DNA from: Collimonas silvisoli
GTDB lineage: Bacteria > Pseudomonadota > Gammaproteobacteria > Burkholderiales > Burkholderiaceae_D
Assembly: GCF_018305005.1 (NCBI RefSeq)
Contig: NZ_JAGQEG010000064.1
Location: forward strand, 1 to 33,759
DNA: 33,759 nt
Direction of reading: 5' to 3'
The notes beneath the pieces are model-generated. The model saw only the letters and a list, made by a program, of their open reading frames with translations, made no database searches and had not been told where the DNA came from. A program made the position numbers and the translations under genes. Every line of letters starts with the position of its first letter. Position 1 is the stretch's first letter. This document shows positions 2,533-14,465 of this stretch, piece after piece.

Positions 2533-2856
2533 TCAGGCGCGCGCGCCCAGGGCGATGACCGCCGCGCCCGTCAACGCCAGCCCGGCTCCCAGCAGATCGG
2601 TCCAACGGGGGCTGACGCCGTCGACGCTCCACAGCCAGAAAATCGCGGTGGCGATGTATACCGCGCCGTAAGCGGCGTACACGCGGCCGCTGGCGATTGG
2701 GTGCAAAGTCAGCAACCAGACAAAAAGCAGCAAGCTGATTGCAGCCGGCAACAATAACCACACCGAGCCCTTGTTATTGAGCCATAACATCGGCAGATAG
2801 CAGCCGAGCAGTTCGGCGATGGCGGTCAGCAGGAATAAGCCAAAAGTCTTTGTCAT
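2533..2856 (-). CDS. ynfA: YnfA family (UPF0060) small membrane protein
   Basis: A 107-residue protein with four hydrophobic helices and the family signature [13 protein letters not shown] near residues 14-26, followed by [10 protein letters not shown]. This matches the YnfA/UPF0060 family, related to the drug/metabolite transporter superfamily. An efflux role has been proposed for some members. ATG 2856 is chosen because the family begins a few residues before helix 1; an in-frame upstream start would add 17 residues without membrane or family character. No strong Shine-Dalgarno is visible. It is divergent from the guanidine riboswitch and gdx gene, and its 5' end is 75 nt from that aptamer. 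Confidence 0.85.
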
Positions 2857-2912: not shown

Positions 2913-2930
2913 GTTGCTGTTTTAATCCCA

Positions 2931-2986
2931 GTGCCGGGACGACCCGGTGCTGTACTCTATCCGGGGACGACCCCGCAATTCTGGAG
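2931..2986 (+). promoter_or_regulatory. guanidine-II (mini-ykkC) riboswitch
   Basis: Two GC-rich hairpins, each closed by an ACGA tetraloop, are the diagnostic of this class. Hairpin 1 spans 2931-2950 (GCCGGG, ACGA, CCCGGT core; 8 pairs with the outer G-C). Hairpin 2 spans 2962-2975 (CGGGG, ACGA, CCCCG). The linker CTCT (2955-2958) is complementary to the Shine-Dalgarno GGAG (2983-2986), so ligand-stabilised hairpins would plausibly free the ribosome site. Guanidine-II RNAs turn on genes for guanidine export or carboxylation; here the next gene, 5 nt after GGAG, is gdx. Confidence 0.92.
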
Positions 2987-2991
2987 ATCGC

Positions 2992-3216
2992 ATGGCCTGG
3001 ATCATTCTCTTTCTTGCCGGTCTAGCCGAAATCGTCTGGGCCGTCGGCCTCAAATATTCCGAAGGTTTCAGCCGCTTCTGGCCGTCCTTGATTACGGTGC
3101 TCGGCATGGCTATCAGCATCTGGCTGCTGGGCGAGGCGGCCAGTCTGGCGCGTGTTGCCAGCGTCAGCCTGATCGTGCTCGGTCTGGTCGGTTTGAAGCT
3201 GTCGTCGGCAGGCTGA
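2992..3216 (+). CDS. gdx: Gdx/SugE-type SMR guanidinium exporter with an internal in-frame deletion
   Basis: A 74-residue protein against the usual ~105. Residues 1-46 match the start of Gdx/SugE, including E13 (ion and substrate site), W16, the [10 protein letters not shown] stretch and S42. Residues 47-74 match the end of the family (GEAASLAR, then LGLVGLKL). The expected ~31-residue segment with helix 3 and the PxGTAYAVWTGIG signature is absent. The join lies at WLL-GE, DNA around CTGCTGGGCGAG, and keeps the frame. Start ATG 2992 has GGAG 5 nt upstream inside the riboswitch platform. Lacking the helix 3 Tyr and Trp of the binding pocket, it is probably non-functional as a guanidinium/H+ antiporter, although the frame remains open. 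It converges on the next gene, with 7 nt between the two ORFs. Confidence 0.85.
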
Positions 3217-3223
3217 ACTTTCT

Positions 3224-3544
3224 TTATGCGGCGGCGTTGATTTTATTGGCCGCGCTGACGGCTTTGGTGTCGAATCCCGCGCGGGTCTTTAATGCCTGGT
3301 AACGCAGGCAGGTGACGCGCAGGAAAGAGGCGAAATTGGTGGCTTCGCCCAGATGCGTGCTGACTTCGTCGTGCAATTTGGCGATCAGCTGGTTGGTGGT
3401 CAGGTCGTTATCTGCCGCCAGTTCCGCCAGGGTTTGCCAAAACAGGTTTTCCAGCTTGATGGTGGTGATGACGCCCATGATGCGCACCGAGCGGGCGCGC
3501 GATTCGTACAATATGGGATCGGCCTGGGCATAAATCTGACACAT
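3224..3544 (-). CDS. ribbon-helix-helix domain protein (RHH_4-like)
   Basis: A 106-residue protein. An N-terminal lead MCQIYAQADPILYESRARSV is followed by a strand-like segment (VITTIKLENLFW) and two helices (AELAADNDLTTNQLIAKLHDE). A conserved NFASFLRVTCLRY tail and an Ala-rich C-terminus complete it. This is the arrangement of the RHH_4 family, small putative DNA-binding proteins of unknown targets found widely in Alpha- and Betaproteobacteria. ATG 3544 has GAGG 7 nt upstream. It lies downstream of the DJ-1-like gene in the same direction, separated by a 10-bp hairpin. The regulatory role is inferred from fold only. Confidence 0.75.
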   Translation of the reverse strand: MCQIYAQADPILYESRARSVRIMGVITTIKLENLFWQTLAELAADNDLTTNQLIAKLHDEVSTHLGEATNFASFLRVTCLRYQALKTRAGFDTKAVSAANKINAAA

Positions 3545-14311: not shown

Positions 14312-14430
14312 TTCGTTTGAAAGATATGTGATTTATCTATAACTGTTATGCGAATAATAAAGCAGACATGAATGCTGCACTGCCATATAGTTACACCTGT
14401 CTCCTCCAACACCTCCTAAGGTTTGGATTC

Positions 14431-14465
14431 AACCCGCCACCGCAAGGTCAGGCGGGTTTTTTTTC
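14431..14465 (+). terminator. intrinsic terminator
   Basis: AACCCGCC (14431-14438) pairs with GGCGGGTT (14451-14458), followed by a run of T. It lies 120 nt after the lrp-like stop and closes that unit before the SRPBCC/ArsR pair. The 119 nt before it hold no gene I can support. Confidence 0.9.

Follow-up and report, generated by a model that had tools for sequence, protein, structure and literature searches.

A probable loss-of-function deletion in gdx beneath an intact Guanidine-II aptamer in Collimonas silvisoli

Introduction

The Guanidine-II (mini-ykkC) riboswitch is characterized by ACGR loops on two hairpins, and it has been proposed to act as a translational switch with a putative anti-Shine-Dalgarno sequence in its linker (PMC9094411). 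The described system closest to the one analysed here couples this aptamer (Rfam RF01068) to gdx/sugE, a gene of the Gdx subtype of the SMR family. The guanidinium exporter with a solved structure is Gdx-Clo (PDB 6wk5 and related entries). In Gdx-Clo, the W62F mutation eliminates guanidinium exchange, the Y59F mutant is not competent for it, and a GIG motif in helix 3 serves as the fulcrum of the conformational change (PMC7695847). A review likewise names GIG as the fulcrum (PMC9574504).

The locus described here lies near one end of a 33,759-nucleotide stretch of Collimonas silvisoli DNA (RefSeq assembly GCF_018305005.1, contig NZ_JAGQEG010000064.1), the whole of which is called the window. 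It has the same aptamer, the same spacing and the same N- and C-terminal gdx sequence as the known arrangement, and it is the same locus as in the relatives within the genus. The product differs, as it is without residues 47–78, including helix 3. Like qacE-delta-1, the naturally shortened SMR gene of integrons, the window gdx appears to have been shortened by a DNA rearrangement; the 3' end of qacE-delta-1 was replaced, whereas the window gene lost an internal stretch. Cesium-resistant E. coli likewise carries a small deletion at such a locus: 20 bp are missing from the P2 loop of the gdx riboswitch, and gdx is expressed constitutively (PMC13064478). There the switch is damaged, whereas in the window the damage is to gdx, under an intact aptamer. 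Among the papers listed by our literature search on shortened SMR proteins, none describes an internal helix loss, judged by title or the start of the abstract (the C-terminus of EmrE is treated in PMC12234006), and the search gave no matching paper on sugE deletions and pseudogenes. We conclude that the window very probably carries a lineage-private, in-frame loss-of-function deletion in gdx beneath an intact aptamer.

Results and Discussion

The aptamer occupies positions 2931–2975 of the forward strand. It spans the full RF01068 model (1–48) with a score of 43.2 bits against a gathering cut-off of 32, and both hairpin loops read ACGA, in line with the ACGR motif and with the two intact ACGA hairpins described in the initial annotation. 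The aptamer is thus apparently intact. Sixteen bases separate its end (2975) from the start of the gdx reading frame (2992). When 2922–3010 was folded as a lone strand, the minimum-energy structure retained P1 and paired P2 otherwise, and the centroid retained both hairpins; the z-score of the fold was −1.37, with 17 of 200 shuffles folding equally well or better. The claim that the linker is complementary to the Shine-Dalgarno sequence proved weak. A CUCUA/UGGAG complementarity can be read by eye, but 208 of 300 shuffled linkers equalled or surpassed the best window duplex between the linker plus the 3' arm of P1 and the stretch 5' of the start codon (−6.0 kcal/mol). The same comparison on 13 sequences, with 300 shuffled linkers each, gave a duplex that was rare against the shuffles in none of them, the lowest count being 53 of 300.

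The gdx gene (a sugE-type guanidinium exporter gene) is an open reading frame at 2992–3216 on the forward strand with an internal, in-frame deletion of 96 bp. The 74-residue product matches PF00893 with 50.6 bits (cut-off 23.7), its residues 1–52 covering positions 1–52 of the 93 in the profile. Its top NCBIfam match is PRK11431 (SugE), the equivalog taken here as a mark of a functional exporter, and the score of 79.4 bits lies under the cut-off of 126. Compared with the 106-residue form of the genus, 32 residues are absent. Helix 1, most of helix 2 and helix 4 are retained, and the end of helix 2, the 2–3 loop, helix 3 and the 3–4 loop are lost. The full-length form of the genus aligns with Gdx-Clo without gaps over residues 1–103 (103 residues), so that Gdx-Clo numbering can be used for it. 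In this numbering, G56, Y59, W62, T63 and the G64-I-G66 fulcrum are gone. Of the five residues E13, W16, S42, Y59 and W62, only the first three are still shared with Gdx-Clo. The initial annotation had described a riboswitch with an intact aptamer over a gdx without helix 3, a 74-residue frame-preserving gene and the survival of E13, W16 and S42, all of which agree with the RF01068 match, the reading frame and the genus comparison; its loss of about 31 residues with helix 3 and the pocket Tyr and Trp was right in content, the length being 32.

Structure prediction from 31 input sequences gave three helices (residues 2–22, 29–47 and 52–73) in place of four with the GIG fulcrum in helix 3. The prediction is of modest quality (mean pLDDT 71.9 for the best and 58.2 for the poorest of five models, pTM 0.47) and is uninformative on function. 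Because one helix is gone, helix 4 should traverse the membrane in the opposite sense. With this reversal and the loss of Y59, W62 and the fulcrum, the 74-residue protein should be without guanidinium export.

We compared the locus across 15 genomes of the genus, namely the window's own and 14 others. A gdx gene is found in 12 of the 14, and each matches the window gene in two pieces that skip a middle stretch. All 12 genes measure 318 bp and encode 106 residues (one, in L007, starts at GTG), which answers the suggestion that relatives might normally make a 74-residue form. The other two genomes, G010 and G012, have no gdx match. G010 measures only 1.7 Mb, yet it is scored as 99% complete. RF01068 exceeds its cut-off in 12 of the 15 genomes, the window's included. 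It was not found in G010, G012 or G014, the last of which has gdx; 150 of 356 first-look candidates were scored for G012 and 150 of 352 for G014.

In G014, both riboswitch loops before an intact, 106-residue gdx read ACGC and not ACGA/ACGR (L009, also L127; C32:93069–93105), and RF01068 was not reported at this site with 150 of 352 candidates scored. Among 392 family genomes, a single one has the two-loop ACGC pattern, and a reversed-pattern control matched in 5, so the meaning of the G014 match rests solely on its place just before gdx. Gene conversion between the hairpins and altered sensing are both possible origins of the ACGC pair.

The flanks of gdx are syntenic between the window and its relatives. 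A PfpI-type gene lies downstream of gdx in 12 of 12 relatives and a YnfA gene upstream in 10 of 12, with partial matches for both in L007. In the window, the YnfA/UPF0060 gene is intact and divergent from gdx (2533–2856, reverse strand); it was not found within about 1.5 kb of gdx in L004 and L005. On the other side, a gene for a ribbon-helix-helix protein (3224–3544, reverse strand; RHH_4, 82.1 bits) converges on gdx. Further upstream, a manganese (yybP-ykoY) riboswitch at 1192–1371 (57.6 bits) precedes an exchanger gene of the Na_Ca_ex family at about 1505–2512 (PF01699, 96.9 bits), whose product may be a manganese exporter in view of that riboswitch. A Betaproteobacteria toxic small RNA lies at 14398–14465 (RF02278, 53.9 bits).

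Across the family, 226 of 392 genomes (the window's included) have a match at E values up to 1e-10, and among the family matches listed the window's is the only open frame of fewer than 100 codons. Homologue loci from elsewhere (at least 117 confirmed and 80 kept, a set from which very near records may be missing) read 98–125 residues from the match start in 80 of 80 cases. A normal short form of gdx was therefore rejected, with none among the 12 genus relatives, the 80 kept loci or the listed family matches. The 18-base junction string occurs in the window only among 369 genomes of the class; this says little, since the string is strict and the sample holds no other genome of the window's genus or family.

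The deletion junction was found in CTGCTGGGC, where the initial annotation had placed it. That annotation had also predicted a short direct repeat, and the repeat is real: in 8 of the 12 relatives, a copy of the 8-mer GCTGCTGG marks each end of the missing stretch, the two copies standing exactly 96 bp apart, and the window retains a single copy at 3123–3130 (forward strand). One or both copies are altered in the other four (L009–L012). Repeats of at least 8 bp are common in the gdx genes of the genus (0 to 8 pairs each), and it is therefore the coincidence with the junction that counts and not the repeat itself. Recombination between short direct repeats is supported by the presence of GCTGCTGG at both ends of the 96-bp stretch, and a deletion between such repeats is the natural reading of the sequence comparison. 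The lineage would have inherited the ordinary locus of the genus, a Guanidine-II riboswitch followed by a 106-residue gdx, and slippage or recombination between the two GCTGCTGG copies would then have removed 96 bp. The papers on slippage returned by our search, judged by title, did not concern bacteria.

An alternative is that the real gene is of full length and that 96 bp were lost in the library or the assembly. In favour of such an artefact, the genome is a 241-contig draft known from a single assembly. The repeat, however, measures only 8 bp, shorter than the word lengths that assemblers commonly use, the junction is some 3.1 kb in from the contig end, the reading frame survives, and no other contig gave the missing segment with 40 of 75 candidates scored. 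The genome is also scored as 100% complete with 0.37% contamination. We regard an artefact as improbable. We also considered transposition of the missing segment to another place and rejected it: a search of the genome with the 96 nt of a close relative (40 of 75 candidates scored) gave 15 matches, all short, the best being 21 bp (E 0.02).

Apart from the deletion, the window gdx is without a stop or a frameshift, and its frame, start, stop and aptamer are all intact. Over the shared 74 codons, it differs from L004, L005, L006 and L007 by 7, 8, 11 and 9 nonsynonymous and by 17, 19, 19 and 16 synonymous changes, respectively. The corresponding dN/dS is 0.12–0.17, and 0.12–0.36 against all 12 relatives. 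In seven examined pairs that exclude the window it is 0–0.12, with 0.04–0.08 for the three pairs among L004–L006. The window values are higher yet low, they rest on few changes, the two ranges meet at 0.12, and most of the time that they cover precedes the deletion; they are at most a hint of relaxed selection on the remainder of the gene. Private residues number three in the window protein and 0–3 in the 12 relatives. The absence of decay fits a recent event, and the best reading is that the deletion is too recent for further decay to have followed. The same lack of decay fits a deletion that still segregates, in which case this strain would be a variant of a species that as a whole keeps Gdx. 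The lineage is sampled by one genome, as is each species, and we give this possibility somewhat less than an even chance. It is compatible with our explanation, from which it differs in scope alone.

No second full-length gdx, for which the initial annotation had advised looking, was found in the draft genome. A PF00893 search of the window's own genome gave one more full gene, on C172 (102.4 bits), as well as a fragment under the threshold on C228 (17.1 bits), and the window protein itself gave only weak matches, on C172 and C110 (E 0.01 and 0.24). The C172 protein has Ala at the position of Gdx W16, in keeping with the description of the Qac subtype (PMC7695847), and it is read for this reason as an EmrE/Qac-like SMR. 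Redundancy of the window copy with another gdx was thus rejected on both searches. Other routes of guanidine handling were likewise sought in this genome: the Guanidine-I riboswitch was not found with 150 of 153 first-look candidates scored, nor Guanidine-III with only 150 of 1095 scored, and TIGR03425, which marks guanidine breakdown via urea-carboxylase-associated proteins, had no match.

The initial annotation had left open whether guanidine export is lost here or whether a three-helix SMR protein has another role. A working protein of this kind, controlled by guanidine and serving for example to regulate another small transporter or to pair with it, would account for the retention of the frame, the aptamer and the acidic E13. 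Three helices are indeed predicted, and the EmrE/Qac-like SMR gene and the divergent YnfA gene are candidate partners. Against this, the form occurs in one genome only and is absent from the 14 other genomes of the genus and from the listed matches of the 392 family genomes; two relatives with a full gene gave no YnfA in the neighbourhood of gdx, the model confidence is modest, and essential residues are lost. We consider such a role very unlikely. Even less likely is a guanidine-induced, membrane-inserted three-helix fragment whose target is another SMR or SMR-like protein, for instance in the role of a poisoned subunit of the remaining EmrE-type transporter. We hold a loss of guanidine export to be much more probable than a new role, because W62 and Y59 are among the residues lost, and no second full gdx was found in the draft genome.

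Conclusion

What happened in the window is gene decay of an ordinary sort, though its anatomy is neat. The riboswitch is probably still responsive to guanidine, but the gene that it now controls would be dead. The locus captures a naturally occurring case of a riboswitch that outlives its gene, and it cautions that an intact riboswitch is no proof of a working exporter downstream. Together with G010 and G012, where the searches gave no gdx and no riboswitch, the deletion suggests that the genus can do without guanidine export.
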